Below are positions 6,401 through 26,967 of a stretch of DNA of 27,044 bases, piece after piece. How positions within the stretch are numbered: the first letter of the stretch is position 1; each line of letters begins with the position of its first letter. The DNA comes from Saccoglossus kowalevskii (lineage: Eukaryota > Hemichordata > Enteropneusta > Harrimaniidae). The DNA is taken from the NCBI RefSeq assembly GCF_000003605.2, contig NW_003122412.1, forward strand, positions 1 through 27,044, read 5' to 3'. The notes below the pieces were generated by a model. That model was not told where the DNA came from and made no database searches. It saw only the letters and a list, made by a program, of their open reading frames with translations. A program made the translations under genes and the position numbers.

Positions 6401-8058
6401 GGCTTTTGTCGTAGACCTAGTCCCTCCCCGGTAATAATGAGCGACTCCTGAATTTCATCTATATGACACGTTTCTTCTAATCGGAACATAGTTTTTATTG
6501 AGTCATACTCTTTCTATGATCGATACTCGGCGTCTTTGTGAATTATGTCTAAAGAGTGTAGAGATATACACTGACAACTAATTCCCGGGAAATCACATCC
6601 TCTGGCTAGTTATTATCTTCTGAGATAAAATTCCCATTATTCAAACATCGATTTGTCTCCTTTCAGTCACATGTGACACGAAGGATGGTTGGCGAAGTTT
6701 TTTATGCGCTCCTTTCTTGATTTTCTTTTTTTGTGTGGATAATATTGCGTATGGATACTGAGTATTGAAGTTGTTAGATTGTGTACGAATTACCAGAAAT
6801 GGGAATCCCGTCCATATCTTCAATGAAATATGTCGGAAAAAGGGAAATGTCGTGAAAATATATTACGCAATGTGATGTACACGTGTGCATTAGTGGTGAC
6901 CATTAATTGTTTTCATAATTTGCATTTTCAAAATGCGGGGTGTGGAGCGTATGCTCAAGAGATGTACGGTTGTCATTTTATGAATATTAATGATCTAACT
7001 TGATCAAAAATCATATAGCCCAAAAGTCAGACAACCAAATTCCAGTTCCATTGACGGTATTTCTTTCATTCTAAAACAGACATATTTTCTAGTGGCAAGG
7101 CACACATACTTGATCCTTTCATTTTATTTATTTATTGGGGGCAAATGCTCACTAAACCACTTTGTGCTTCTGCCAAAATATTGCTTGCGATTTTCTCCAG
7201 CTGATAAAGGTATAAGTGGGTACAATTTTCCTTACTATTGCAATTATAACCCACACAGTTCTGGGTTATTAACCCACTCCAAAGCCTACACTTACCTATA
7301 TAACTTGTATACGCACATTTGTTTTTATGTGGGATGTAAATTTACAACACACTGCAAAACAGCCAAATCCATCTGATGTGATTACAATTAAGAAGTAACA
7401 TGCGAATCACGTTGAAAAGTACAGCGTACAATAACAGGTACAGAGCAATTAAAATATATTGTCGGAATTTCCACTGGGGTTTTATCGACAATACCTCAGA
7501 GAAATTATATGCGCTCGTACTTTAGAATGGAAATTGAATTACTAAACAAATGGTGTAGAAAAAAATAGCAATCAAATTAAATTACTTAATTTAACTATAA
7601 TTTGTTACATGACAAGTATTCGCCCAATTTGTTTAAATGTCTGAATTCAACCTGTGCAAGTAAATGACTTGTATACCATGGTAGACGATTGTAGGCATTT
7701 TATTTTTCACTGTTCTTAAACTTGAAGTTCTTGCGAGTTTTTATTAGAAAGACATTTTTGCTGGATTTCAAACACGTCATTTATGTCTACGGAGGAAAAG
7801 TTGCGCGAATTCGAAACTACTGAATTGAAGGCACAATACGGACACAAAAATGAATTTCTAATAGTGTTGTTTAATATTGCACATTGCGGACCAATTCGAA
7901 TATGATTTATCGTGAACTAAACACGTTAACGTTCATTTATTTCACATTATATAGTTAATATTTCGATGAAAGAATACGCACCAATACGCATACCACGCGT
8001 ATCTTTTGTGCGCTGCGACAACAGCGTTTTTAGTTTATCATAAATCAGTATCCAGTAT
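3493..8058. other. Long non-coding stretch
   Basis: Frames here are short (under 100 codons), lack recognisable motifs and have the composition of the surrounding AT-rich DNA. There are small palindromic patches, for example the ATTATCATTATTAT/ATAATGATAATAAT pair at about 3583-3625. No gene, RNA or complete mobile element is evident. Confidence 0.5.
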
Positions 8059-10610: not shown

Positions 10611-10743
10611 AAGATTATTAACATGTCGACCCAGTTACAGCGGCCACTTCCCGTCAACGGACCATCGACGGACCTCTTGCAAGATTACCGCTCAGCACAC
10701 GAAGAGGGCATCACTCCAATGGAGGAGCCGCCCAAAGAAGTAA
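10594..10743 (+). promoter_or_regulatory. Upstream ORF overlapping the channel start
   Basis: An ATG at 10594 opens 49 codons in a different frame, ends at TAA 10741-10743 and overlaps the first 121 bases of the channel coding sequence. Its initiation context is moderate (C at -3, G at +4), while the main ATG has A at -3. Ribosomes using it would miss the main start, so it could lower translation. This is inference from position only. Confidence 0.35.
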
Positions 10744-11109
10744 TAATGAAAGGGGACAATCCTTGCGATGCTATCATTGGGAACTTTGCATCGTCTACTA
10801 CCGTTCACGGACTACCACATATCTTGAGCTCCACCTCGCTGCGTGCCAAACTGGTCTGGGCTGCGGTGTGCCTGGTCGCAATCTGCGTGTTCGCATATCA
10901 GTCCTCCGAACTGATCCACCTGTATCTGCGATTTGAAGTCCGAATGAAAATAGAAACTGGTACTGCTGAAAGTCTATCTTTCCCGGCCGTTACGATATGC
11001 AACACAAACACGATCCGCGCATCAGAGGCCGTACGAAGTGGATTTGCCGAGGTAGTGAAAACCGATCCACAACATCCAGAAAGTATTCATCGCAAGCTGA
11101 TATATAAGA
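10623..11109 (+). CDS. Channel exon 1: N-terminus, TM1, start of ectodomain
   Basis: Codes for 162 residues plus one base (phase 1), ending at a consensus donor GTAAGT. The start ATG has A at -3 and is the first ATG after an in-frame stop at 10608. Residues 1-60 are a polar cytosolic tail. VHGLPH (61-66) holds the HG pair conserved for gating in DEG/ENaC channels. A hydrophobic run at about 75-94 is TM1, and SFPAVTICNTNTIR (119-132) is the family signature just outside the membrane. Confidence 0.93.
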
Positions 11110-14100
11110 GTAAGTACAACATATTACAAAATACAAAATTCAGTCTAAACACTGAGAAAACATTGTTTTACTTTCCTCTAAAATATAAGCATAATTTGCC
11201 ATATAGAATTTTCTCTGTGTAGACACCCAATCACCCCCAAATGTTTAATGATCAATCCCTCCGTACTAATATTCCGACCAATTAAAATGAATAAGAACAA
11301 TTATACTCTTTCAGATATACAGCAATGACGCCGTACATGGCTTATCGATTTACAAACTCATATTCATTCATTTGCATACGTTTACAATGTGTTGTTGTCA
11401 TACGCGCTTATTACTATTACGTTCTTGCAACGTATGTTTTTGGCACCAGCGTTCTCGACATCACGGTGATTACAATATTCATATTATTGCATTTTAAACA
11501 CTTATGTATTGAGATTAGTATATAATTAGTATCTACCCGTGACGAAATGAATTTTCACAAGTGACTATATAAATAAGACATAGGCCATGACGTCGTCTCT
11601 CTCAAGGCTAGATCTCTTGCTCTTAAAGTATTTCTATATTTGATGAAGGGAATAGGGATAACGTAAAGGTTTGACTAAGAGGGGAATTCACATCTGGGCC
11701 ACTTTCCCTTAGTATTTTCGTTTAGTAATTTTCCCTTATGTTGAAGTCAACTAACCGGGGGAGCACATAGTTTGATATTATCCCCCATTCTTTCTTCACC
11801 AACGTCTCACTTATTTTACACAGCCATGAACCGTGACCGATGATTAAATAAACGTGGCCCTCTCACTATTCAAACACAATTATTGCTATTTACGAAAAAT
11901 CGATATTAATATTCGCACTAGATCGAGAATTATTCGAGGTTCGTGTTATAGTCAAATAATAATTTTCGTCAATGTTTTTGTAACTCTGTGGACACAAACT
12001 GAAAAGTTACAATTTTCTGTATTCTCAATATTAAATGAGTCTTGTGATGATGAAATATGTATTTAATATTTAATATTTTATCATCTAATGGTCACTACAT
12101 GTCTTGAAATATATTGTCCCCATGGCGACTAAAATACATTAGCGCACACTGTCTCTATCTACTCGTGTTAATTTAGTAGCAATCTTGTAGCAATTAATTA
12201 TTTAGACCATGCATGTTCCGAATGAATAAATTTGGAATAATCATGGGTTACCATAGAAACAATGTATCCTGTTTATTGCTTGTATAAAAGTTAAAATTAT
12301 AATTACTTATTGCCATCATCCGTTGTGATATAGCTCACCAACCAGGAAACAACAACTCCCAGAGCATGAAGGATTAGCGATCGACGATTTAATAGCACAT
12401 CCACGGAGAGGTAGTTTTTGCGAATATCCGGTCTGTGCACACGTGTTCTGATGAACACCGCAAACCCAATTTGAAGTTTTAAAAAGCTATGACGTCATCT
12501 GACAGTTTCGGCTATATAACAAGTTGTTTGTATTTAAATTCATGCGCTTGCGCGGGACGAAATGGACATTAATATTGCAATATCAAGTACTTACGTAGCT
12601 CAGCCAGGATGACCTATGGCGATTTTAATATAGTTACTATTACCACAGGTTTACATGAAGGCAAACACCGTGGGAACTGTAATTAATAAATACGGTTGCA
12701 TTATTAATATAAACAAAAATCCGACATATGTATCATCGTCAGTTGTTTTTGAGTGCCGCAATCCATCAAACTATTAACGTCAATGTATTGTATATAATAC
12801 GAGTGAAGTACCTAATTGTTCCTTTATCATCACTGCTGTTTATTTCCGAGAAATAAAAGAATACAAATATATTCGTAGCGTCATCCGACTGTTTTTTTTT
12901 AAGATCTTCGGTGATAACTTTCGACGTCAGTTGTTATTTTTTAGTTTACAGTTCGGTGATTTCAAACCGTCGATTAATAGCTGCTGTAAAATATAGCATA
13001 TACGTTTAAATCTCACGGGATGTGACGTCGACGACGATGGCAGTTAGTAGGCAATGAGAAGACGCGCCAGAAGCGAGGACGATGTTATCAATTCGCGTAC
13101 TTCTGATTACATACATATGCCTCAGATAACAAAATAATAATAATTAAAATGCAATTGCAATTGTGTAATGCATTATATCAAATGTAGAGATAAGGGTATG
13201 TAAACTTCTTAACCATGACAATTCTATGACAATATTTTTAAGGAAGCTAGAAAAACAACAACCCTGAGACGAATTGGAATGATTTTTTTGTCTTGGTTAT
13301 ACTCTCTAGAAATGTAGGGTTGTATCGCGTCTGCTCGTGATCATTTAGACCTGGAGTCTATGTCACCATGGTTACATAACCTGCTAAAATTTGTTTCGCA
13401 TATGTACTTAGCGACTATTATGTGAAATATGCGATATGTGAAATATACGATATGTGAAATATGAGTCGAATATATACAAATTGCAGAACATGTTAAGAAA
13501 GTTAAAATTTCAAGGAATATCAGCACGCCCGGACACTGGCGATCATTTCGGCTTCCTATTTTATTGTGTACTTGAATTTCATTTATTCACGTGTTTGAAC
13601 AAGGAATCGATTCAGTTCCGAATCACCACAGACGCAGTAATTCAGAACACAAGCGAATTCAGTAGAATCACACAATATTCCCAGAAATTTTCTCATATAT
13701 AGGTTTTAGGAAAGATCTCAGAGTGCATATTAATTTGTTTGTTGTCTGTGTTCATCCAGCTCCATGCATGGACGAAGATTTCTCGTGCGGTGATGGCACT
13801 TGTATAAAAAGCCACCTAGTGTGTGACGGCTACTTCCACTGCTGGGATGGTCTTAGTGACGAAGTAAACTGTACATATCGTAAGTTCTATTTGCATGTAA
13901 CTGTAAAACAAGACTAAAACAAAACTTTAAGAAACAGGAAGGTGAATGTCCTACCTGGATTGAGACGCGACTGGAAATATCACTATGACGTCATGCATTA
14001 CTGCACAGACACTTTGGTCGTTAGAAGACATCATTTATCGTCATTAACCCAAGAACGTCATAAATATTGTATTACCTCATGTTTCTCGTATAGCATGTCA

Positions 14101-17100
14101 GTAGAGAGTCCTCCGGTTGCTAAGCAACAATGCACATACGAGTGAGCACCGATCATGTAGGCGTACATGACAAACTCGCGGAGGTACTCAAATAGGAAAT
14201 GTTTGCGTGATTGGTTACTTTTCCCAAATAGGAAATGTTTGCGTGATTGGTTACTTTTCCCAAATAGGAAATGTTTGCGTGATTGGTTACTTTTCCCAAA
14301 TAATCACTTGCCAAGGGTCACATTTTGAGAGATTTTTTTTTATCAAATTTGAACAAATATTTACTAACATAGAGCAAAATTTTATCAACATCTCTTTTTC
14401 GTCGAGTAAATGACGTCATTTCACCCCAAAGGGCATTGTTCACCGCCGAATATTGGTTTCGGTCACTTTTCAGACCAAAATTTCTCTAGAAAAGGGTCCA
14501 TGTTTTGCGGTCGGGCGGCAGACCTCCGTCATGTTTACCCCCAACCAGTGTAGTAAACAATACTTAGTGTGAGGCAAGGATGTCGAAACACAAATTGTCA
14601 ACAAACATGTCTGAATTAAGAAGGGATATTCACCATATGTTTTAGAAAAAAACACACCTAATATAGACCCCACGGGCGTCGCTCTGTAGAACACTCAAAT
14701 ATAAGAAAGAGTCATTCCCCTAATTTTGGTCATCAATGTGTTACAATTTTTATACCGGGTTTTATATCAACTTCAGTTTTCCAACGAGCACGTTCAGGTG
14801 ATGTTTTGTAGGAGTTTACGAAATGGCCGTGCAATATATTTTTTTTTTATTCATACACACTGATGAAAAAGGACAGAAAAGTGAGTTGTGACATCTTGAA
14901 ACGCGTTCCAATACTTCGATCAGTGACATAACGCCCCCTAATTACAATATTACATGTGATGGTGTTCTTATGTTGTCTTTATAGAAAAATGTGGAGTCAA
15001 CGAATTTAACTGTGGACAAGCAGGGCTCTACGGTGTTTGTATCCCCGAAGAACAGCGATGTGATGGAACGTACCATTGTCTTGAAGGGGAGGACGAGCAA
15101 AATTGTCGTGAGTATTATCCAATATTCGATAGAAAATTAAAAATAAGACTATTCACCATTATTATGCGTGTCACGTATCCATTTTCTAGCGGAACATCTT
15201 TTGTAGATTACGAATGTCGAACCGATTCTCTCTTTCGCACATTGTGATTTTGTATGGATCACTCATCTTCAACCTCAGCGGATATAAAATATATCGATTG
15301 CGATATGACAATTCATGAATTTGTTGAATTTTATAAACGTTCATCATCGGTCTTCATTAATATATAAGTATTAAAATGCAAAGTATTTTTATCGTGATTT
15401 GGACTTTTTTGTCAAACTGCTTCGAAATGTTTATGTGGAGGTCAGATCTTTGTGTTTATTTAGGCAGACGAGTTTTCATTCCGTTTCTGACGAACACTAT
15501 AACTTCACCCGCAGCGAATATTAATGATTATATATTAATAATTGTTTCAACAACTTAAATTGTGAACACATTCTGAGGAATGTACACAACTGCATCTAAC
15601 AAGTTCATTTAAAAACGATATTTTGGGCCCAGAACTTTCGCTGTGTGCGACCGCCTTACGCCGAGTGAGTGTAAACTACAGTATACTACGCAGAGTGTAT
15701 TGAATCCATATTTCTTGTTACATGTTTTCAAATTATAAGTGGCAATGAATACACCACTTTGTCTGCTTTTCTAAATTGTCTATGCTATTGCGCTAGATCG
15801 TAGTGAGCATTCTGATTCACACTGAAAATAATAAAAATGGCAAAACCGTGCACCACCATTGGAATTCATCTTAGGTTAAAATGTAATCAGCTTACATCAT
15901 GACAACGCATGCAAAGTATTTAGACTATTGGTTNNNNNNNNNNNNNNNNNNNNNNNNNNNNNNNNNNNNNNNNNNNNNNNNNNNNNNNNNNNNNNNNNNN
16001 NNNNNNNNNNNNNNNNNNNNNNNNNNNNNNNNNNNNNNNNNNNNNNNNNNNNNNNNNNNNNNNNNNNNNNNNNNNNNNNNNNNNNNNNNNNNNNNNNNNN
16101 NNNNNNNNNNNNNNNNNNNNNNNNNNNNNNNNNNNNNNNNNNNNNNNNNNNNNNNNNNNNNNNNNNNNNNNNNNNNNNNNNNNNNNNNNNNNNNNNNNNN
16201 NNNNNNNNNNNNNNNNNNNNNNNNNNNNNNNNNNNNNNNNNNNNNNNNNNNNNNNNNNNNNNNNNNNNNNNNNNNNNNNNNNNNNNNNNNNNNNNNNNNN
16301 NNNNNNNNNNNNNNNNNNNNNNNNNNNNNNNNNNNNNNNNNNNNNNNNNNNNNNNNNNNNNNNNNNNNNNNNNNNNNNNNNNNTCACTTAATACGCTAGA
16401 ACCCCCCATTTTTATAAACGACAGTGTTAATCGTTCAACCAATAGTCTAAATACTTTGCATGCGTTGTCATGACGGCATGTGGACTCCGCCAGTGAGGGC
16501 GTCGCCCCATAGCATCGTCATGACAACATCAATGCAACTTGGTGACAACAATCACTATACTTCTGATTATACATACGATATTCTGACCATAGGCAGTAAT
16601 ATTTCATTATCATATTCAACAAAATTGATGTGGTTATTTTTGGTTTGTTTTATTTTTTATAGCTTCGTGTCACGGCGAGCAGGCTCATGCATGTGATAAC
16701 AGCGACGGGGATTCTATAAATAGATGTATTCCGCTTAGTAGTGTGTGTGATCACTTTCCCGACTGTGTTGATGGTTCGGATGAGAGATTATGTTCGTATG
16801 ACGGTAGGTGATCGACTTAGGATGATTGTACGATTTTCCGAACTGGCAGACCGTGTCAATGGGATCTTTACCTGAGCGTGACGAAGTGTGTCACGAGAGC
16901 GACACGTACGTCCGATAGCACAGAGAAAACACAAAACGCTACAACTGCACTACGTATAGATATGGCACAATGGTTGCGTTCCAGTATCTGCAACTTGGTA
17001 TTGGTGAATTAGTAGGGAAACTTGTCACTGATAGAATCGGTATCATTATATACACGTCAGATGTTGCCATGGTAACAGACTGTTGGATAAACTTGTATAT

Positions 17101-20100
17101 ACCATGTTGTGCAATATATCTTCTGTATATCTGTATATTTCTTATTGCAGACACAGGTACGTCGGGAGGATGTTCTACCAGTGTAACAGCATTGCCTACC
17201 ACCATGTCGATGTTATACTCACCAGGGTATCCGTCTGACTACCCCGGGGATCAACAGTGTACGATTAACGTGCACTCGCCTGTTACTTACTGTACGTATA
17301 TAAGATTCTTGGAAATGGACATTGCATGGAGTGCTAACTGTTCAGACGATTTTCTAGCGGTGAGTCCGAAATAACTTCACTAATAGATGCTTGTTATTAC
17401 GCAATGATTGTGAATCCGTGTTGTTACTGATAAGACCACATTGGGCTAATGAAAACATTCGTTTGCACAACTACTTTTAATGTCGTACATCTTACATTTA
17501 GCATTACGTATCGATTGCTCTAAATGATTGTTATTACGCAATGATTGTGAATCCGTGTTGTTACTGATAGGACCACATTGGGCTAATGAAAACATTCGTT
17601 AGCACAACTACTTTTAATGTCGTACATCTTACATTTAGCATTACGTATCGATTGGTCTAAATGATTTGACAGCCTCTCCCATGAGAACAGAATCGATGAT
17701 ACCAACAAGTACAGTTAGCGTGATTAATAGCATTGCTTTCATCTGGGATTATATTGATGCGTGAGGTGCAAGGCAACATCGAATGACTAAAACGCAGAAT
17801 TTGTTTCTAATACTAATTCTCGAAAGCGGCAAACCACTTAACTGCGTGTGAAATCACTATCACGTCCCTTACACAATTTTTATTATCATACACGCCTCCG
17901 TTGCAGCTAGATGACGTAATGAATACCAACATCAGCCGTAAATATTGCGGTCATAATACGCCGACATCTTGGATATCCTCCTCAGATGAAGTGCTCCTAC
18001 ACTTCTCCAGTAACTCTGACGGACTGGCAGGACGAGGGTACCGGCTGGAATACACGGCAGTGCCTTGTCAAGATGATTCCATGATGACTTGGGAAACTGG
18101 ACCCTGGGAAGAGGTCACTAATAAGTATTATTACATAATATTTCCCTTCCTCGGACGTCGTACGTGATGGCATTGTCAGTTACTCCATCACCATATTAGA
18201 TAATTGCAAAGTATTTAATGTACCAGATACACTCATTTAGCTGTGAAGGAATTCCAATCAGTCAATTTTCAGATTAAACGCAATTACAACCATTGTTATA
18301 TGTGTCGTGACTTTCTGTTCACTGACGCTTTGTTGCTAGATGGCGCGATTAGAAGAATTATCGATAATGCAAGCACACATTGATATATACAGATACCACA
18401 CGCTACGTAAATACGTATAACCAAATTATTCTCTACTGGATTTGTTGACTTAAGTCCGAGCAAAGATATGTCCACTAACCAAAACATAGATCAGGCCACC
18501 GCCACACAGGTATGTCCACACGCCAGAACGCAGATAAGGACAACGTCACACAAAGATATGTCCACACACCAGAACACAGATCCGGACACCGGCACACAAA
18601 GACATGTTCGCACATCAGAACACAGATCAGGACACCTACACGCAAAAATATGTCCACACATCAGATAGAACACTGCTGAGCACATTGCTTTTCCGGGAAT
18701 AAATGTACTAGTAGAGTAAATTACTTGAGCATGAAAGGAAGAAAATAATTACTTGTTTTTCAGTGTTCTGTAACTTGTGGCATTGGTACACGAAGTCGCC
18801 AAGTTCAATGTCCTGTTGATTCGTCGTCGTCACTATTTGAATGCCTTATTCCGGGATCAATACCGCCGTCTGAAGAAGTGTGTAACACTCAACCATGTCC
18901 AGGTAATTTTTAAATAATTCTAATCCAATTTATTTATGTGACTTGGTTGACCGTTATGAACCGGTCATAGTGGCCTCAGGTCATCTAACACTAATATTTT
19001 GTTATTAAAAGACAAGATTCAAAATGTACCACAAAAACTTATGATTGGTGTTCTTTTAGCAAATATGCCCTCTTTTGTGGAATGAACTTCTACTCTACAT
19101 TCAATCAATATCAATGTTTTTAAGATTAGTCTGAAAACCCGTCGATTTAAAAGACAGTTTTCATTTAAATCAGACTTTAATGGTAATGCTATTTTAAAAG
19201 TATTTTGAAAACTTTTTATTTTATTTGTTTATAATACTGTTAATGTTTCTCTTAGTGTGAATTTTATTTATGTTTGTATGGCGGTGTTTGACGCAGTGAA
19301 CATCGCTTAATAAAATATGTTATTATTATTTTTTTTATCTGATAAGCACCATCAGCTAGAGTTACCAAACACTGCCAGCATACCGTTCCTGTAAGACACG
19401 CCCTCCAGTGGCGAGGAGTTTCTATGACGCAAATGCGTGAATGAAAGCCTATTCACATCATCGATAATGTTTTGATTTGTAACAGTCCATAAAAATAAAG
19501 TTTTGAGGTAATTACTGTGTTTTAAATGACAAACGAAAGCACACCGAGGCACAGTTGTTGATTTGGACGAGTCTGACGTTGCCACCACCTATCTACGCAA
19601 TTGTAACGTCACCGAAGCGCGTTGTCGGTAGAGGGCGCGACATTTAAGAAAGGTGAATTGCGTTGAGCTATTACGTAATATAAACTTATTGTTAACCTTC
19701 GTACTATACTTACTTTTCTGAAATCTACAAAAGTTTACAACTGTATATTGGAGTCAAAGAAAATATTTAGCGCGATGGAGGGACAATATTTTGATGTTGA
19801 AGTATACCTTCAGTGTAAATACCGTGCTTTTCAACCCTTCTTTTCAGGATGGTATAGAATCTTTTGAAATTTCTATTAGGCGAACTGTTTCTGAGTTAAG
19901 ATTTGCTTTTACCAGAAAGCTTAGCGCTGAATCTTACTTTCAGAACTGTGTTATTTTCTTACTCTCTAGACGGGTTGTGTGGGGCCGTGCTTGAACAGTG
20001 TTGTGCTGAACTGACGTCACCGGGTTACCCTGACAACTACACTGTCAATCTGCATTGTGAGATTTACATAATCAATTCCGATGGTTGTGTCGCTATTAAT

Positions 20101-23100
20101 TTCATTGCCATGGATATTATTGACAGTGAAGAATGTCATAAAGACTACTTACTGGTCAGTATGACAATGTAAAACAATTACAGCGGGCGAGTCGTCACTT
20201 GCGCATGTGCCAGATGGCCATAGCGTGTCATTATTTACAAACAAGCGTCGCTTGGGACTCGATTCCCGCGCGTGCGCAGGTGACAAACTCCCGCTTTAAA
20301 TTCTACCTGATTCAACAACCTCAATAACGATAACAACAACACCGCCATTGACAGAAAGTAGTATTTTCACGTGATTTGTGTTTTGTAGATTCAAGATCTT
20401 GACCGTCCAACGCACAGACAGATCTACTGTGGCAAGAGTATGGAACGATGGAATTCGGTTTCTGGTCGTGTATTAATGACCTTCCACAGCGATAGTTATA
20501 TGGGTGCCGCTGGATTCAAGGCAACGTACGAGTTTGTACCGTGCGGAACGTGGCAGGTCATGGCATGGAGTCAGGTACGTATGTATGCTCGGTGCCCAGT
20601 GATACTCTGAACTGTGCAACGGTACATTCGATCTATGCTGCACAACATCACAAATATAATGCTCATGACAGTGTTAGCGTTGAGTCAATGCGAAGTTACT
20701 TTACAAAATTATACCTGATTGACTACCCAACCATAACACCCATCAGTCGGACCAATCAGAGAGCAGGTTTTTTTCGACGCATCAAATTCTTCCTTGCATA
20801 TAGGCTTCGACTCATCTGTTGGCGTTTGATCTGGCGTTGATCGTAATTTAATGCATGAACAAACAAACATCGGTGACTTTTATATCATTTGACATTGTAA
20901 TGGCCTGAACACATCAGAAATCAAATAATATTAATCTGACATGGTTTCCAATCATCCCAGAAAATGTAGACGACTTTCTGTTGAGTACCTTGCCAATATT
21001 TACCGGAACTATTTTTAAGATAAGCAACAATTTGATTGAATTTAGTTGTCGTTCCAAATATGTGTAGTTTTTCGTGTATTCCGAAACTTTCTCAAACACG
21101 TTAAACGACCAAGTGACTAAAATATCTAGTTCTAGGGCTACATTTACGATGATAAACGTGTCGACGAAATAATACCAGTGCAAGGACGTAAAGTGCCTAC
21201 TGCATGTACATCCATATTGAATGAATAATCTATACTATGCTTTCTCGTGTACACTGACGTACTACCTACTAGTATATGCAAATAACGTCAGTGTAACAAA
21301 GTGTATTTCTTTCAGTGTACGGCGTCGTGTGGGAATGGTATGCGATTCCGACGGGTTTTGTGCTGGAGTCGCTCGCATAATGGTGAGATAGATGAAAAGT
21401 TTTGTTCGGACGTCAAACCAATTACGTCGGAAAAGTGCAATGACGTCACATGTGACGTAGGTAGGTATTCTTTAGCTTACCGCGCAATGTTACACAGCGT
21501 CTGATTGGGCGCCTTTCCAACAGGCACATCCAATCAAACTTGGTTATTTGTTTAACATAAAATACGCGTTTATCCAGGCTGATCCCGCACGGGTTGGTGG
21601 AGTCGGTAATGAGTCGGCAACAACAAACCGTGCGATTCTGATTCGGACGATGATTAAATATATATTGTGTCTATTATTTGACGAAAATAGTTTCACTGGA
21701 TAGTCGTGTTTATATAATTATTGAATATCACCATCTAAAGCAACCACACCGACCAATAAGCCATCGTTTATGCGTGGGTACAAGGTTTGGAAATTCAACA
21801 CATTAAACCGGCTAGCCGTTCAATACCACTATCATGATTTATATTTCAGTCAGTTTGACAGTGGTTGTTAATGACAAGACCAGATGGCGAGCTGGTCGAA
21901 ATCAACCAAAAACATCTTATGACTCTGCAGTTTTTAAGATACAAGACAGTAGCTGTAATTCTAAACCAATGTTGTTTGCGAGTTTAAAAAAGGTAGTATC
22001 TTGGTGGAATGTTAGTGCGAGATTATTACCCCATCAATATTAGTTAGCGTTGACAATGTATAGAAATGTTTTCTCTAGACAGCTTGACGAGTAATTAATT
22101 GATTATGATGTGTAAAACTTTCATGTGATTGGTTGTTTGTTGGAAGGCAAGGCCTTGGAGTCTCTTATACTGATTGTAATTGGTTAAGGGGTGACAAGAA
22201 ATAAAGATGGATTTAATGCTGTCTCGGGTGAAAACCAGGGACTTGGCAGAGAATCGTTTTGGGAACATGAACGAAGCTTGTGTGTGTCTTTTGTTAGCCT
22301 AGCGTGGAAACGACCGAATCCCGGTTACCTAAGTGAAAGGTTTTTAACCATCAAAAATACCTATCACACCACAAACATTGAGCAATATACATCTTCCCGG
22401 GGACCTCTTCAAGTTCTCATGAATGTTCATTTTGTATTTCTTTTAAAGTTGAGGTCACTGAAATCCCCTACACGGTGAAAAATTTGTACGAACGTTTCAA
22501 AGACCTAGTTGATGAGTTCAGTGTTTATCAAGACTTCATCGATTCCTACTACACAAAGAACTCCTTTGATGGGATCATGGAATACCCACCGGATTGGGTC
22601 GGTGAGATGATTTTCTCCGCTATAGTATTTAAAGCCATACCCCAGACCATTCGTCCCGGTGTTATCGCTATCGCCACACGAGACTCCAGCTTGTCTTCTA
22701 TACAATTTGACTGCGCACATCCAGAAAGTAGATGTAGCTGTGATTGGTGGAATACTAATGAGTTGAGTGTCAATCAAACGCCCACGCTATCTTTAGTAAA
22801 CAAAGTCACGTGACACGCGCCATTTTAGTTTTGATTAGTTCATCGTGGTCGGGCAGGCGATTTCAAGGCAGCAGGCTTAACCCTTTCATTCACAGGTTGG
22901 GAGATATTAGAATGACTGACAATTTCACGCCACTGTTTTACATTATTGGCGGATTTTTCTGCGCTATCAATCTTTCTCTTACAAACTAGACATAGATGAG
23001 ACGACAGAGTCGCTCTTTTCACAACGTCGCACTGGATCAAATTGGAAAGACGATTTCCATAAGTTATCCTCCTGCTTTTCCTGGCTTGAATAAATTCACA

Positions 23101-25502
23101 CACGACTTTAACTGTCCACAAACTCGAAGACTACACGAACACAGTCTACAATAGTCGTCCGCAACAATATGTATGTATTTCTTCGGTGTACTGATGCACG
23201 AATGCACCGTGACACGGTGTTTCTCGGGTGTCGCCATCGCTGAGAATGCCGCCGGCGCAATTTTTCACCCAACTCGCGATTCTGTTTTGCAACATTTTAT
23301 CAATATTCCCTTTGACAAAATCGTCGACAAAAGCACCGCTTTGCTGATCTTTTGTTCTATAATTCTTAATGCAAACACCGACCCTAGTAGTAATTAGTAA
23401 CGTCGCCTAGTACATATCATGGATGTACTAAGAATGAACGGTCGTCATTGCAAATCGAACATCCTTTTGAAATTTGGACGTCGGGCAGGCGATTTCAAGG
23501 CACCGCACTTAAATATTAGCAACATATGATTTTTCTGAGCGGTTGTTGATTCTCTTTCAAACGAGACATAAATGTGACAACATAGTCGATCCCTTATCCA
23601 CCGCTAAGAATGCCGCAATGTTTCGTTCGTTTTGCAACATGCCACAAATCGTCAAAAAAAACACCACTTCGACGGAAGCTTGCGTAATAAGGGGGTTAAA
23701 ACAAGAAAACAAATGCCATGTTTAATACATATCAACCTGTTTTACTTGCGTTTCGTGCGACTTCGGAACCCGAAGTTCCATGGGGTTTATAGTTCCATTA
23801 ACACACCAACAACGTTGAATTTACCCGCTATCTTCCAAATATGGTATATTAATTTATTCAGTTGTTTATTTAGAGTGACGTCCGCGGTCGAATGCGATTG
23901 GCTATCGATGTCAGTGCAAAGGTCATATGAATATTAAAATTAAGTGGGCGGAAGGAAAATTGTATAGGAGACAAGCTGGAGTCTCGTGTGGCGATAGCGA
24001 TAACACCGGGACGAATGGTCTGGGGTATTAAAGCCAGGATTCCGGTTTTCAGAATCTAGAAGGAAAATATAAATCCTTCCGTATTATTTTAGAAAATACT
24101 TTATTTCCTTCTCATAATTATGATGCACAAATTACTAGTAGCATATTTGGAAACTTATCTACGTTAATATAAAAATTAGCATATTTGGTAATTGCAAAGC
24201 TCATTACAATGATTAATACCCTGTTTTTACTAATTTTGGTCAATATTTTTATTATTATTTTTGAATTATTAAACAGTATAATAAATTGCCATCAATGCAG
24301 TTTTTGGTTCTTTCAGTCGATGTTTCTGTTTGCCCAGAAAGACATATGCAAATTAACCAATTATTATGCATATTTTGTACATACACTACTGTAATGACTG
24401 TATTCTTTGTATGCACTTTTTTCACGTTCATACTATTACATAAAACATTCCGAAATTAGCTTTTAGAATACTTTGCACGAACTCATTATTAGTCTTAATT
24501 TGTTTCTTATAGTTAAATCTCCCTCATAGCCATTCCAAAAACAAAAATCACATCACTGGACCACACCGTCACGGTCTGTTTCCGTAATGTATGTTTCTTA
24601 TAATGCCAGGATTGCTGTCGCGTAGTACGAGCCCTGATTACAGTGACTTGCAGGATATGCTTAAACTCTCTGCAGAGGAAGTTGCTAAGTTTGGTCACCA
24701 AGGAGAAGATTTCATTTTGAGATGTACGTTTGATGAGAAGTACTGCAACTCAAGGTATCATGACGTCAGCTAATATTTCTAATATATTAATCACATCTGA
24801 TTATTGATTACTATTAACACGTGTTACTTAATCAAAATATAAACAATCTCTGTCATCAAAGATTCTTCTGGAAGTCACAATTTTCCGAAAGTCTTCGGAA
24901 TTTACGAATAATGCCGACAACGGTGTAATGTGGGTTTTACTCTTTTTTTAGCCAGTTTAGTGTTTTTCAGAATGATAATTATGGCAACTGTTATACGTTC
25001 AATGATGAAAAGCTCATTAATGGGACTATCCGGCGATCCTCAAGACCAGGGGCACGATTTGGTAAGTGTACAAATAATGTTTATGTTTACAATTTTTCCA
25101 GCCTTGGGGTCTAGTTAATTTAGAAAGCAACTTCGTGTAACCTGTTTTGAACTGGTACTTTCACAACTTCCTGTTATGAGTTCGCGACAGTGCCACCAAC
25201 GACGAGAAGGGCGATTTGTTTTTATAGCCGACATGATGTACATGATAGTCCAATACGCCCTCTAGTGGGATATATACGAAGAACAAATGTAACTTCATAA
25301 TAACTACTAGTATCTGTATGTCATTATCCTCATTCTAGGTTTGAAGATCACGTTATATTTGGAACAGAATGAATACATACCAATATTTGGACAAACGGCC
25401 GGGGTTCGTGTTTTGATTCACCCCCCTGACGTAGCACCATTCCCAGAAAATAATGGAATCACCGTACCACCGGGCTTCAAGTCATCGTTTGCAATACGCA
25501 GG
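10623..25502 (+). CDS. DEG/ENaC-family channel with LDLa-CUB-TSP1 ectodomain (gene span, partial)
   Basis: Spliced gene of at least 14 exons (listed separately), 2505 coding bases and 835 codons visible, no stop reached. Domain order by predicted residue: cytosolic N-terminus with HG gating motif (62-63); TM1 (about 75-94); FPAVTICN (120-127); three LDLa modules (163-290); CUB1 (about 291-415), TSP1-1 (to about 475), CUB2 (about 476-590), TSP1-2 (to about 647); then the DEG/ENaC ectodomain with FGHQGEDFILRC, YGNCYTF and the GLKITLYLEQNEYIPIF palm strand. Splice phases agree at every junction. The thumb cysteine array, TM2 and selectivity filter must lie beyond 25502. DEG/ENaC proteins form trimeric, usually amiloride-sensitive sodium channels at the plasma membrane. 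The inserted adhesion-type modules suggest ligand or matrix tethering, which is inference. An exon could be hidden in the 450-base gap. Confidence 0.9.
11110..13759 (+). other. Intron 1 (2650 bp)
   Basis: GTAAGT donor and TTCATCCAG acceptor. Frames inside are short and without motifs. A 16-bp sequence (TATGTGAAATATNCGA type) repeats about three times near 13419-13463. Nothing else is supported. Confidence 0.75.
13760..13879 (+). CDS. Channel exon 2: LDLa module 1
   Basis: 120 bases, phase 1 to 1, donor GTAAGT. It encodes one LDL-receptor class A module with all six cysteines (CMDEDFSC, GTC, HLVC, FHC, VNC). The calcium site is altered: the Asp normally before the fifth cysteine is His (CDGYFHC), and one extra residue sits in WDGLSDE. 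The N-C-T triplet near the end is a possible N-glycosylation site. Confidence 0.9.
13880..14984 (+). other. Intron 2 (1105 bp)
   Basis: GTAAGT donor and TTTATAG acceptor. It holds the 36-bp tandem triplet at 14190-14297 and otherwise non-coding DNA. Confidence 0.75.
14190..14297. repeat. 36-bp tandem repeat, three copies
   Basis: Three identical adjacent copies of a 36-bp unit starting AAATAGGAAATGTTTGCGTG, plus a few bases of a fourth. The perfect identity indicates a recent local expansion within intron 2. The open frame through it is a by-product of the unit length. Confidence 0.95.
14985..15107 (+). CDS. Channel exon 3: LDLa module 2
   Basis: 123 bases, phase 1 to 1, acceptor TTTATAG, donor GTGAGT. 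Six-cysteine LDLa module (KCGVNEFNC, GVC, QRC, YHC, QNC). As in module 1, His replaces the Asp before the fifth cysteine (CDGTYHC). The usual DGSDE reads EGEDE, so the calcium cage is only partly conserved. Confidence 0.88.
15897..15933 (+). repeat. Left arm of 37-bp inverted repeat at gap edge
   Basis: This arm, starting TCATGACAACGCATGC, is the exact reverse complement of 16437-16473. It stops at the first N of the gap, so the true arm may be longer. Confidence 0.95.
15934..16383. other. Assembly gap (450 N)
   Basis: A run of exactly 450 unknown bases. Any open frame through it is an artefact. The real length and content are unknown. Confidence 0.99.
16437..16473 (-). repeat. Right arm of 37-bp inverted repeat at gap edge
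   Basis: Perfect reverse complement of 15897-15933. No matching target duplication is seen outside the arms (left flank ends CTTACA, right flank starts CGGCATG). Another TCATGACAAC occurs at about 16517, opposite in orientation to the end of this arm. Confidence 0.95.
16663..16803 (+). CDS. Channel exon 4: LDLa module 3
   Basis: 141 bases, phase 1 to 1, acceptor TTTTTATAG, donor GTAGGT. Six-cysteine LDLa module (SCHGEQAHAC, NRC, SVC, PDC, RLC). Unlike modules 1 and 2 it keeps the full acidic calcium set: CDHFPDC followed by VDGSDE. Confidence 0.9.
16804..17150 (+). other. Intron 4 (347 bp)
   Basis: GTAGGT donor and CTTATTGCAG acceptor. No internal feature is seen. Confidence 0.75.
17151..17359 (+). 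CDS. Channel exon 5: first half of CUB1
   Basis: 209 bases, phase 1 to 0, acceptor TTATTGCAG, donor GTGAGT. It encodes the start of a CUB domain: a leading cysteine (GGCSTS), the typical YSPGYPSDYP turn, QQCTINV, and the second cysteine pair ending at NCSDDFLA, where the C..D.L pattern of CUB domains falls. Confidence 0.9.
17360..17906 (+). other. Intron 5 (547 bp)
   Basis: GTGAGT donor and CCGTTGCAG acceptor. About half of it is the 137-bp tandem duplication. Confidence 0.75.
17391..17664. repeat. 137-bp tandem duplication
   Basis: Copy 1 (17391-17527) and copy 2 (17528-17664) differ at only a few bases. The unit starts TTGTTATTACGCAATG. Both lie within intron 5. There are no terminal inverted repeats, so it looks like simple duplication. 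Confidence 0.93.
17907..18113 (+). CDS. Channel exon 6: second half of CUB1, start of TSP1-1
   Basis: 207 bases, phase 0 to 0. It continues CUB1 with KYCGHNTP, the strand EVLLHFSSNSD and GYRLEYTAVPC. It then reads TWETGPWEE, the tryptophan-containing first strand of a thrombospondin type 1 repeat that continues in exon 7. The donor GTCACT is weak, but the phase and the completed TSP1 motif require it. Confidence 0.87.
18114..18763 (+). other. Intron 6 (650 bp)
   Basis: Weak GTCACT donor and TTGTTTTTCAG acceptor. The reading frame continues 18 codons past the donor before a stop at 18165-18167. The 46-bp tandem array occupies about 200 bp. Confidence 0.7.
18462..18668. repeat. 46-bp tandem repeat, about 4.5 copies
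   Basis: Units begin near AAAGATATGTCCACACACC and recur with TATG/CATG landmarks at 18467, 18511, 18557, 18603 and 18649 (spacing 44, 46, 46, 46). The copies have diverged, so the array is older than the 36-bp repeat in intron 2. Open frames on both strands come from the repeat. Confidence 0.92.
18764..18902 (+). CDS. Channel exon 7: TSP1-1
   Basis: 139 bases, phase 0 to 1, acceptor TTTTTCAG, donor GTAATT. It completes a thrombospondin type 1 repeat: CSVTCGIGTRSRQVQC, then a spaced C and NTQPCP at the end, giving six cysteines. CSVTCG fits the C-x-x-S/T-C-G site that is O-fucosylated in TSP1 repeats, and R-S-R supplies the stacked arginines. Confidence 0.92.
18903..19969 (+). other. Intron 7 (1067 bp)
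   Basis: GTAATT donor and ACTCTCTAG acceptor. It contains a possible retroelement tail (19230-19335). Otherwise nothing is seen. Confidence 0.7.
19230..19335 (+). mobile_element. Possible non-LTR retroelement 3' tail
   Basis: A GC-richer patch (GGCGGTGTTTGACGCAGTG) is followed by AATAAAATATG and a short TTATTATTATT tail. This resembles the 3' ends of LINEs or SINEs with a simple-repeat tail. There is no coding motif and no visible target duplication, so this is a weak call. Confidence 0.25.
19970..20154 (+). CDS. Channel exon 8: first half of CUB2
   Basis: 185 bases, phase 1 to 0, acceptor ACTCTCTAG, donor GTCAGT. CUB features are CGAVLEQCC, TSPGYPDNYT, LHCEIYI, the cysteine in DGCVAINF, and EECHKDYLL, which equals the CSDDFLA position of CUB1. 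The exon boundaries fall at the same domain positions and phases as exon 5. Confidence 0.9.
20155..20388 (+). other. Intron 8 (234 bp)
   Basis: GTCAGT donor and GTTTTGTAG acceptor. About half of this short intron is the inverted-repeat element at 20181-20296. Confidence 0.75.
20181..20296. mobile_element. Small MITE-like inverted-repeat element
   Basis: The left end CAGCGGGCGAGTCGTCAC and the right end, read in reverse (AGCGGGAGTTTGTCACC), form an imperfect inverted repeat of about 28 bp around a core of roughly 60 bp. The ends are GC-rich against AT-rich surroundings. The size fits a MITE. No clear target duplication is seen, so a plain hairpin is also possible. Confidence 0.45.
20389..20574 (+). 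CDS. Channel exon 9: second half of CUB2, start of TSP1-2
   Basis: 186 bases, phase 0 to 0, acceptor GTTTTGTAG, donor GTACGT. CUB2 continues with QIYCGKSM, GRVLMTFHSDS and GFKATYEFVPC. The exon ends in TWQVMAWSQ, the tryptophan strand opening the second TSP1 repeat, as in exon 6. Confidence 0.9.
20575..21315 (+). other. Intron 9 (741 bp)
   Basis: GTACGT donor and TTTCTTTCAG acceptor. No exon or element is recognised inside. Confidence 0.75.
21316..21460 (+). CDS. Channel exon 10: TSP1-2
   Basis: 145 bases, phase 0 to 1. It completes the second TSP1 repeat: CTASCGNGMRFRRVLCW, then FCSD, EKC and VTCDV, six cysteines in all. CTASCG again fits the O-fucosylation pattern. The end is placed at GTAGGT (21461) because phase 1 joins exon 11 in frame. 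GT dinucleotides 4 bases to either side are possible but give the wrong phase. Confidence 0.87.
21461..22448 (+). other. Intron 10 (988 bp)
   Basis: GTAGGT donor and TTCTTTTAAAG acceptor. Frames inside are short and motif-free. Confidence 0.7.
22449..22601 (+). CDS. Channel exon 11: DEG/ENaC ectodomain resumes
   Basis: 153 bases, phase 1 to 1. The peptide runs VEVTEIPYTVKNLYERF, then SVYQDFIDSYYTKNSF, and ends EYPPDWVG. The donor GTGAGA at 22602 was chosen over the open continuation because exon 12 then joins in phase as DWVG-LLSRS. This is the part of the DEG/ENaC ectodomain leading to the finger region. No LDLa, CUB or TSP1 residues remain. Confidence 0.85.
22637..22708 (+). repeat. Left terminal inverted repeat
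   Basis: 72 bp, matching the reverse complement of 23957-24028 except for one T/C difference. It lies 35 bases after the exon 11 donor. Confidence 0.93.
22840..23121 (-). pseudogene. Open frame inside the transposon, unknown
   Basis: A minus-strand open frame of 93 codons lies in the element interior. It includes HLCLVCKRKI (a single CxxC) and a basic stretch. The related module at 23481 has stops in the corresponding frame. It may be a remnant of a transposon protein or of captured host sequence. No family is recognised, and chance is possible. Confidence 0.2.
23957..24028 (-). repeat. Right terminal inverted repeat
   Basis: Inverted partner of 22637-22708, followed directly by the second TTAAAGCCA copy, which shares its first base with the end of the repeat. 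Confidence 0.93.
24610..24754 (+). CDS. Channel exon 12: DEG/ENaC finger region
   Basis: 145 bases, phase 1 to 2. It encodes SPDYSDLQDMLKLS followed by FGHQGEDFILRCTFD and YCNS. The GH..EDFIL.C.F...C pattern is the conserved cysteine-containing stretch before the YGNCYTF motif in DEG/ENaC channels. Donor is GTATCA. Confidence 0.92.
24755..24960 (+). other. Intron 12 (206 bp)
   Basis: GTATCA donor and CCAGTTTAG acceptor. The acceptor was chosen because it restores phase 2 and leads straight into the YGNCYTF motif. Confidence 0.75.
24961..25061 (+). CDS. Channel exon 13: YGNCYTF motif
   Basis: 101 bases, phase 2 to 1, donor GTAAGT. It encodes VFQNDNYGNCYTFND, a strong family signature, and a possible N-glycosylation site at LINGT. 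Confidence 0.93.
25062..25338 (+). other. Intron 13 (277 bp)
   Basis: GTAAGT donor and CATTCTAG acceptor. No internal feature is seen. Confidence 0.75.
25339..25502 (+). CDS. Channel exon 14: DEG/ENaC palm/thumb strands
   Basis: 164 bases, phase 1 to 0, donor GTAAGT. It encodes GLKITLYLEQNEYIPIF, then GVRVLIHPPDVAPFP and VPPGFKSSFAIRR. This matches the G-L-.-L.L....Y......G..V.IH.....P pattern of DEG/ENaC ectodomains. The cysteine-rich thumb, TM2 and G/S-x-S selectivity filter would follow in exons outside the window. Confidence 0.93.
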
Positions 25503-26341: not shown

Positions 26342-26587
26342 TGTTTATGTTTACGTCCATACTTACTTTATACTCTATTTATGTTTGGTCTTAATTATTG
26401 TAATTCTGTTAATTGATTTAATTAATCCCTGACACCTGGTCAGCGCAATGTATTGTTTTGGCGGCACCTTTCATGTGCGCTATATAATGCGTGACCATTT
26501 GCAGAATAAACCAGAGTTCTTTCAACCATCAATCGAACGTCTCTCCGTGATATCGTCTTTTCCGACCGATGTATTTCCCCTACCACA
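26342..26587 (+). mobile_element. 5' LTR of a BEL/Pao-type retroelement (predicted)
   Basis: The segment begins TGTTTATG and ends CCACA (TG...CA ends). It contains a TATATAATG box at 26481 and an AATAAA poly(A) signal at 26505-26510, and is followed within a few bases by a TGGTGCCGAGAACC primer-binding-like sequence. Only this LTR is in the window, so the left edge cannot be checked against a partner. Confidence 0.6.
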
Positions 26588-26592
26588 TTTTT

Positions 26593-26606
26593 TGGTGCCG
26601 AGAACC
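26593..26606 (+). other. Primer-binding-site-like sequence
   Basis: TGGTGCCGAGAACC directly after the predicted LTR. TGG-TGCCG sequences at this position are usual in BEL/Pao and related LTR elements, where a tRNA 3' end primes minus-strand DNA. Confidence 0.55.
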
Positions 26607-26673
26607 AGTTGCATTGCTGAACCTACTAACACTCAACGAAAAGTTGCAGTCACTAGTATATCAAGAAGTCAAG

Positions 26674-26967
26674 ATGACAGAACCAAGAACGAATCTGCAA
26701 CAACTTACGAAGAAGCGAGGTGCTAACAAAGCGCAGCTAACCAGACAGTTACAGAAAGCGGACGATACATCGAAAAAAGACAAACTAGAAGAAACCGACA
26801 TCGAACTGCTTCAGTCAACCATCGAAAACATTGAAGAACAAATCAAACTGGTACGTGACCTAGACGAACAAATACTTGATCTCGTCGAGGAAGAAAACTA
26901 CGAAAGACTATTCACTGAAGCCGACGATTCACTGAACTCCGCATCACTCGATACCAGCGGGTTTTGA
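26674..26967 (+). pseudogene. BEL/Pao-type gag start, frameshifted
   Basis: A 97-codon frame starts at an ATG 67 bases past the primer-binding site. It begins with a basic KKRGANKAQLTRQL segment like the (R/K)G..K.QLTR motif at the start of BEL/Pao gag-pol polyproteins, followed by a charged helix with coiled-coil character (IENIEEQIKLVRDLDEQI). The frame ends at TGA 26965-26967. Near 26926-26929 a second frame becomes the natural continuation and stays open for 39 codons to the window edge (serine/proline-rich). A one-base loss, or an assembly error, best explains this. The rest of gag-pol is outside. Confidence 0.6.

Follow-up and report, generated by a model that had tools for sequence, protein, structure and literature searches.

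LDLa and CUB-TSP1 modules within a DEG/ENaC channel-subunit gene of Saccoglossus kowalevskii and its modular sister genes

Among DEG/ENaC channels, ASIC1 and FaNaC are not known to carry adhesion modules in their ectodomains. The alpha, beta and gamma subunits of ENaC possess an extra finger-region domain, GRIP, which PMC6197857 describes as a group of short beta strands found only in ENaC; according to the same paper, DEG/ENaC gating is thought to run through the finger and thumb. For nematode degenerins, PMC10148893, which treats the tethering of DEG/ENaC channels to the extracellular matrix, describes the matrix proteins needed for worm MEC-4 as separate proteins. Modular proteins also act on ion-channel receptors. 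PMC9083331 assigns receptor clustering to LEV-10, which has CUB and LDLa domains, and to MADD-4, a TSP1 protein; SOL-1 and SOL-2 alter the properties of one receptor, and Neto proteins bind their receptors through CUB domains. No DEG/ENaC channel with LDLa, CUB, TSP1 or PAN modules was found by title or abstract in the open-licence PMC literature, and the main text of PMC9822975, PMC10507113, PMC9949801 and PMC9234716 contained no occurrence of LDL or of thrombospondin. Similar predicted proteins may well be listed in UniProt or InterPro.

The window analysed here comprises bases 1-27,044 of contig NW_003122412.1 (labelled C1494) of the S. kowalevskii genome (572 Mb, 4,830 contigs). A gene of 14 exons was modelled on the + strand at 10623-25502, with splice sites placed by hand from reading frames and splice signals. 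Its exons, with the evidence for each in brackets, and the tandem repeats of its introns are as follows:

10623..11109, + strand: exon 1, cytoplasmic N-terminus, HG motif, TM1 and FPAVTICN, phase-1 donor (splice model, Pfam ASC, ASIC1 match)
13760..13879, + strand: exon 2, LDLa 1, phase 1-1 (splice model, Pfam)
14985..15107, + strand: exon 3, LDLa 2, phase 1-1 (splice model, Pfam)
16663..16803, + strand: exon 4, LDLa 3 with CDHFPDCVDGSDE box, phase 1-1 (splice model, Pfam)
17151..17359, + strand: exon 5, first half of CUB 1, phase 1-0 (splice model, Pfam)
17907..18113, + strand: exon 6, second half of CUB 1 and start of TSP1-1, phase 0-0, weak donor GTCACT (splice model, Pfam)
18764..18902, + strand: exon 7, remaining TSP1-1 with CSVTCG, phase 0-1 (splice model, Pfam)
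19970..20154, + strand: exon 8, first half of CUB 2, phase 1-0, weak donor GTCAGT (splice model, Pfam, unit alignment)
20389..20574, + strand: exon 9, second half of CUB 2 and start of TSP1-2, phase 0-0 (splice model, Pfam, unit alignment)
21316..21460, + strand: exon 10, remaining TSP1-2 with CTASCG, phase 0-1 (splice model, Pfam, unit alignment)
22449..22601, + strand: exon 11, DEG/ENaC finger resumes, phase 1-1 (splice model, matches finger exons of sister loci)
24610..24754, + strand: exon 12, finger with GHQGEDFILRC, phase 1-2 (splice model, Pfam, ENaC alpha match)
24952..25061, + strand: exon 13, YGNCYTFN motif, phase 2-1 (splice model, Pfam, ENaC alpha match)
25339..25502, + strand: exon 14, next ectodomain segment, LYLEQNEYIPIF...FAIRR, phase 1-0 (splice model, Pfam, ENaC alpha match)
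14189-14302: intron tandem repeat, 36 bases x 3.2, 100% matches
17387-17666: intron tandem repeat, 137 bases x 2, 97% matches
18461-18665: intron tandem repeat, 46 bases x 4.5, 79% matches

Every intron of the model has GT...AG borders, and phases agree at 13 of 13 junctions. Under random phases such agreement has a chance of about 6e-7, a value that serves as a guide only because the splice sites were picked by the analyst. Exon 2 starts about 2.65 kb after exon 1, a 450-base run of N sits in the intron separating LDLa 2 from LDLa 3, and the stretch TATAAATA was found about 136 bases upstream of the ATG. The spliced frame encodes 838 aa without a stop, and the Pfam order along it is DEG/ENaC, LDLa x3, CUB-TSP1 x2 and DEG/ENaC again. 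The initial annotation had read these exons as a single in-phase protein holding the HG motif, TM1, FPAVTICN, three LDLa and two CUB-TSP1 modules and further ectodomain. The exons, phases and open frame bear this out, as does the domain search it had proposed, in which ASC, Ldl_recept_a, CUB and TSP1_ADAMTS all scored above cut-off. A single gene for a DEG/ENaC channel subunit is represented here by its 5′ portion; that channel and module exons belong to a single gene is almost certain, given the phase agreement on both flanks and the sister genes with the same layout described below. Exon 1 joined straight to exon 11 also gives an in-frame, stop-free product of 353 aa, so phase alone does not prove that the module cassette is always included.

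Outside the 14 exons, a 21-base unit is repeated in tandem about 129.5 times (84% matches) at positions 1-2725; the array has long open frames on each strand but looks like a minisatellite and not a gene. An open frame rich in charged residues at 26551-26967, with no Pfam family over the cut-off, looks like the start of a retroelement gene. The intron between exons 11 and 12 includes similar stretches at about 22635-22700 (+) and 23960-24030 (-), which read IPQTIRPGVIAIATRDSSLS... on translation and are probably a dispersed repeat.

The channel parts on either side of the modules were recognised by Pfam ASC with 160.5 bits over two stretches of the spliced protein, above the curated whole-protein cut-off. 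The HG motif at residue 62, before TM1, aligns with that of ASIC1, and FPAVTICN at residue 120, after TM1, matches the DEG/ENaC TM1 signature FPAVTxCN in both the Pfam ASC and the ASIC1 alignment; HG, TM1 and FPAVTxCN are shared with ASIC1 and FaNaC. The best PDB chain for exon 1 was ASIC1 (E 9.6e-12), and FaNaC1 gave E 5.4e-11. For exons 11-14 it was ENaC alpha (6bqn_A, E 5.1e-21), and the YGNCYTFN ectodomain block is present in exons 12-14 (Pfam, ENaC alpha match). By its sequence, the gene is a DEG/ENaC, with an ectodomain layout that appears undescribed in the open-licence PMC literature searched.

Two NCBIfam models locate the insert. Against the ENaC model TIGR00859, the flanking pieces cover positions 8-89 and 207-328; scored separately and with the C-terminal half missing, they reach 69.7 and 127.4 bits, far below the cut-off of 428. 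The degenerin model TIGR00867 matches both flanks as well, at positions 1-83 and 303-422, leaving a gap of about 220 positions (83 to 303) at the insert site. The different gaps indicate that the interval already varies in length among known subfamilies. The insert falls in the finger-region interval that carries GRIP in ENaC, and we infer its exact position relative to the helices from these alignments. The location given in the initial annotation, between TM1 and the finger, is supported as to place; the insert does not simply precede the finger, however, but lies in the interval that GRIP occupies within the finger of ENaC. Whereas GRIP consists of short beta strands, the insert measures about 485 residues and is built from LDLa, CUB and TSP1 modules.

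All three module families exceeded the curated Pfam cut-offs on the spliced protein: CUB with 108.2 bits (two copies), TSP1_ADAMTS with 66.2 (two) and Ldl_recept_a with 61.8 (three). LDLa 3 has a complete acidic box, the residues of which we take to be those binding calcium; in LDLa 1 and LDLa 2, a His replaces one acidic residue of this box. CUB-TSP1 forms a three-exon unit (phases 1-0, 0-0 and 0-1) present in two copies. Because the introns of both copies lie at identical alignment columns with the same phases, and because their global alignment score of 202.5 (56 identical residues) far exceeds the maximum of 11.5 in 200 shuffles, the unit is, judged by sequence, a tandem duplicate. Both TSP1 modules contain the C..S/T-C-G sequence, which serves O-fucose attachment in TSP1 modules. 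The best PDB match of the CUB-TSP1 part was cubilin (E 2.9e-28), and CUB 2 weakly matched Neto2 (PDB 7f56_E, E 2.8e-7).

Other DEG/ENaC loci of the genome were surveyed with Pfam ASC. With 93 of 217 candidates scored, 37 TM1-type matches were selected besides that of the window. Downstream DNA was read for 18 of them, giving 19 loci with the window; the first three were chosen for a long stretch between TM1 and finger and the others mainly down the list, so that the sample is not random. Modules were counted by tblastn at E 0.02, at which a few chance matches are possible, and PAN-type exons were first read from translations of sister loci. In 14 of these 19 non-randomly chosen loci, window included, same-strand module exons follow the TM1 exon:

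window gene: LDLa x3, CUB-TSP1 x2
C262: LDLa and one PAN-like
C3976: PAN x3
L040, L042, L043, L044, L051, L053: LDLa only, 5 to 8 in the stretch read
L045, L046: LDLa x6 and ShK
L047, L048: LDLa and PAN
L050 (C2855): LDLa only, about 13 exons after the TM1 exon within the 10 kb read

The thirteen sister genes (C262, C3976, L040, L042-L048, L050, L051 and L053) share with the window gene the TM1 exon, its phase-1 donor and the presence of module exons; they differ in the modules themselves, which range from LDLa arrays of 5 to 13 through LDLa with ShK or PAN to three PAN modules. Of the 19 loci, the window gene alone showed CUB-TSP1, and this part of the cassette therefore has no sister for comparison. 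No module exons were found at C692 (L038) or at L039, which contains 251 N, and L041, L049 and L052 are uninformative on modules, with 46-62% N. The L038 locus includes a polybasic NTRRRRQT past the conserved part of the TM1 exon, in the interval of the ENaC furin sites.

The succession of TM1 exon, modules and finger exons was followed in five of the 14 module loci: the window gene, C262, C3976, L045 and L046. The DNA read at each of the remaining nine (7.6 to 10 kb) did not extend as far as a finger exon, which makes their module counts minimum values; by analogy with the five, these modules would also be linked to a downstream channel part. ASC matches of later model positions lie farther along the same contig and strand at L047, L048 and L053. 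Three sister genes read without a stop from the TM1 exon to an exon-14-like segment, namely C3976, L046, whose frame starts at its ATG, and L045, whose frame starts at a late ATG located in TM1. Pfam recognised LDLa x6, ShK and two ASC stretches in each of L045 and L046, and PAN_4 x3 with two ASC stretches in C3976; the automatic model of L045 shortened the last LDLa through an early donor. C262, which has one stop at the PAN-exon junction in the automatic model, was not counted among the read-through genes, and its single PAN exon scored 19.6, just under the Pfam cut-off of 21.4. Two PAN stretches of L047 passed Pfam.

Some matches in these stretches were set aside or stand apart. A CUB match at 1598 of L044 (E 0.006) was judged to be chance, and an LDLa match at 7540 of the same locus, without good splice sites, may be chance as well. 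The first LDLa of L040 and of L043 has lost one cysteine in this reading, and L042 shows a second, partial TM1-like stretch at 1747. Six other DEG/ENaC loci (L001-L006, on C2355 and C3473, five of them within about 90 kb of C3473) have matches that span TM1 to mid-ectodomain in one stretch, L003 with two internal stops; no modules were present within the 3.5 kb examined per locus.

The initial annotation knew of no well-described channel with such a module set. The literature searched agrees with this, but the locus is not a single oddity: its architecture belongs to a family of modular channel genes that this genome contains.

Intron phases bear on how the family arose. The TM1-exon donor is in phase 1 at 14 of 14 module loci, and 78 of 85 candidate LDLa exons are phase 1-1, against a random expectation of 1 in 9 (splice choice was phase-blind; the count includes the three LDLa exons of the window and the self-matches of L050 (two), L040 (one) and L051 (one)). 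Other self-matches of sister-derived queries were the ShK of L045 and the PAN of C262, C3976 and L047. When the window LDLa modules were the sole queries, 79 matches were obtained in 12 of the 18 sister loci, 70 of them phase 1-1, with none on the opposite strand. A control module search of 77,713 readable bases elsewhere in the genome, including the six other DEG/ENaC loci, gave no matches. The phases of the TM1 donors and LDLa exons point to exon shuffling, which, as read from sequence, is the insertion of phase-1 cassettes into one shared intron behind the TM1 exon.

For three pairs of closely related sisters, LDLa exons gave dN/dS values of 0.31, 0.13 and 0.29 and TM1 exons gave 0.26, 0.11 and 0.16, with LDLa exons paired by order (5, 3 and 6 exons), few changes and no significance test; the L042/L044 LDLa comparison comprises only 7 synonymous and 11 other changes. 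In these pairs, channel and LDLa modules look to have been copied together and both look constrained at the protein level; the window gene has no such pair. According to the TM1-exon tree, the window gene groups with L049 (support 86/99, 48% identity), whose following DNA is 61% N. Good support is limited to 4 of the 17 inner branches, and several terminal branches are long, so no order of module gains and losses was drawn.

The 3′ part of the gene would lie beyond the exons modelled. No thumb, TM2 or C-terminal exon was recognised within the 27,044-base window, the whole-genome Pfam ASC search (93 of 217 candidates scored) gave no TM2 match for this gene, and a motif search of the 80 kb that follow the window, part of which reads N, showed no TM2 or selectivity-filter exon in the readable sequence. 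As no TM2 exon was found, the gene is only presumed to encode a working channel; its product would be a subunit of a trimeric cation channel.

The explanation that we favour combines one channel gene, a finger slot filled by shuffled phase-1 modules, and modules that anchor or cluster the channel; as a whole, we give it an even chance of being correct. Against it stand the two weak donors, the in-frame join of exon 1 to exon 11, the two sister loci that show no modules, the His of LDLa 1 and LDLa 2 and the cysteine losses in sister LDLa exons. The slot, from the end of TM1/beta-1 to the distal finger, would have been filled through exon shuffling by phase-1 cassettes, here three LDLa exons and a three-exon CUB-TSP1 unit later duplicated in tandem. 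About 485 residues would then project from the finger region of each subunit of the trimer. The modules may bind an extracellular partner, such as matrix, a neighbouring cell or a secreted ligand, and this binding would anchor the channel or gather it into clusters. Since the finger moves during DEG/ENaC gating, the pore may also receive load or binding exerted on the insert. The initial annotation had likewise suggested a matrix- or ligand-tethered sodium channel, a function that is still hypothetical.

The nearest functional parallel is the clustering or tuning of receptors by LEV-10, Neto and MADD-4, here with the modules fused in cis. Neto and LEV-10 (CUB and LDLa) and MADD-4 (TSP1) carry the same kinds of module and act on ion-channel receptors, but they are separate single-pass or secreted proteins, whereas the CUB and LDLa modules of the window gene do not form a separate single-pass protein and are joined in phase to DEG/ENaC exons on both sides. 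Likewise, the matrix partners of the nematode degenerins (deg-1, MEC-4) are separate proteins, unlike the modules inside this subunit. According to PMC9083331, LEV-10 can cluster receptors without its LDLa and does so through its CUB domains, which speaks by analogy against LDLa-only sisters as clustering devices. Anchoring or clustering as the main function of the modules is, by this analogy, a tentative assignment, somewhat short of evenly balanced.

Several other explanations were weighed. Direct ligand gating, with the modules binding a soluble ligand or acting as a tethered agonist, draws on the fact that LDLa, CUB and TSP1 are ligand-binding folds and that the LDLa module of relaxin receptors acts in a ligand or tethered-agonist fashion; the cassette also varies among sister genes whose channel frame is retained, much as in a receptor repertoire. 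We regard this mechanism as rather unlikely. It is distinctly unlikely that the cassette exons are optional, with a plain channel of exon 1 spliced to exon 11 as the main product and module isoforms minor or tissue-specific. The stop-free 353 aa product, the symmetric 1-1 phases of LDLa exons and CUB-TSP1 units and the two sister loci without modules (C692 and L039) would fit such splicing, but the low LDLa dN/dS in the three sister pairs and the shared position of the modules in 14 of the 19 loci argue against it. The shared interval and the ENaC alpha match of exons 11-14 would suit a GRIP-like insert, an inhibitory plug near finger and thumb removed by proteases to open the channel. Yet the only furin-type RX[KR]R site in the 838-residue frame, RFRR at residue 609, lies inside TSP1-2, and folded disulphide modules would be poorly suited as protease plugs; we consider this role quite improbable.

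The remaining explanations deny a working modular channel. A decayed or truncated copy lacking TM2 would account for the missing TM2 exon in readable sequence, but the 14 exons contain no stops or frameshifts, a TM2 exon lies farther along the same strand in C3976, a sister gene with modules, and the contig after the window is partly N, so the absence of TM2 is not established; such decay seems very improbable. An arrangement of two genes would place an LDLa-CUB-TSP1 protein, secreted or membrane-bound, in intron 1 of a plain DEG/ENaC gene, and the distance between exons 1 and 2 leaves some room for it. We rejected it as barely credible because the cassette borders fit the phase of the channel on each flank, 13 sister loci likewise have modules after the TM1 exon though their cassettes differ, and three sister genes read through in one frame. 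The preferred reading is that of one channel gene with a finger slot filled by shuffled modules.

Beyond the single locus, sister channels with differing module strings suggest a set that could sense, or be anchored by, outside partners. A slot-and-cassette receptor family of one animal lineage, in which the finger slot docks the phase-1 modules LDLa, CUB-TSP1, ShK or PAN and the sodium channels are gated or placed by different extracellular partners, is possible but more doubtful than not; if it exists, the symmetric exons would also permit isoforms with fewer modules from one gene. The family also clearly illustrates how exon shuffling can act on an ion channel, and does so repeatedly in a single genome. 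It bears on how extracellular forces and partners reach the DEG/ENaC gate; in the worm the matrix partners are separate proteins. Built-in modules that may bind partners and natural cassette swaps among sister genes would allow a direct test of whether finger load or ligand gates the pore.
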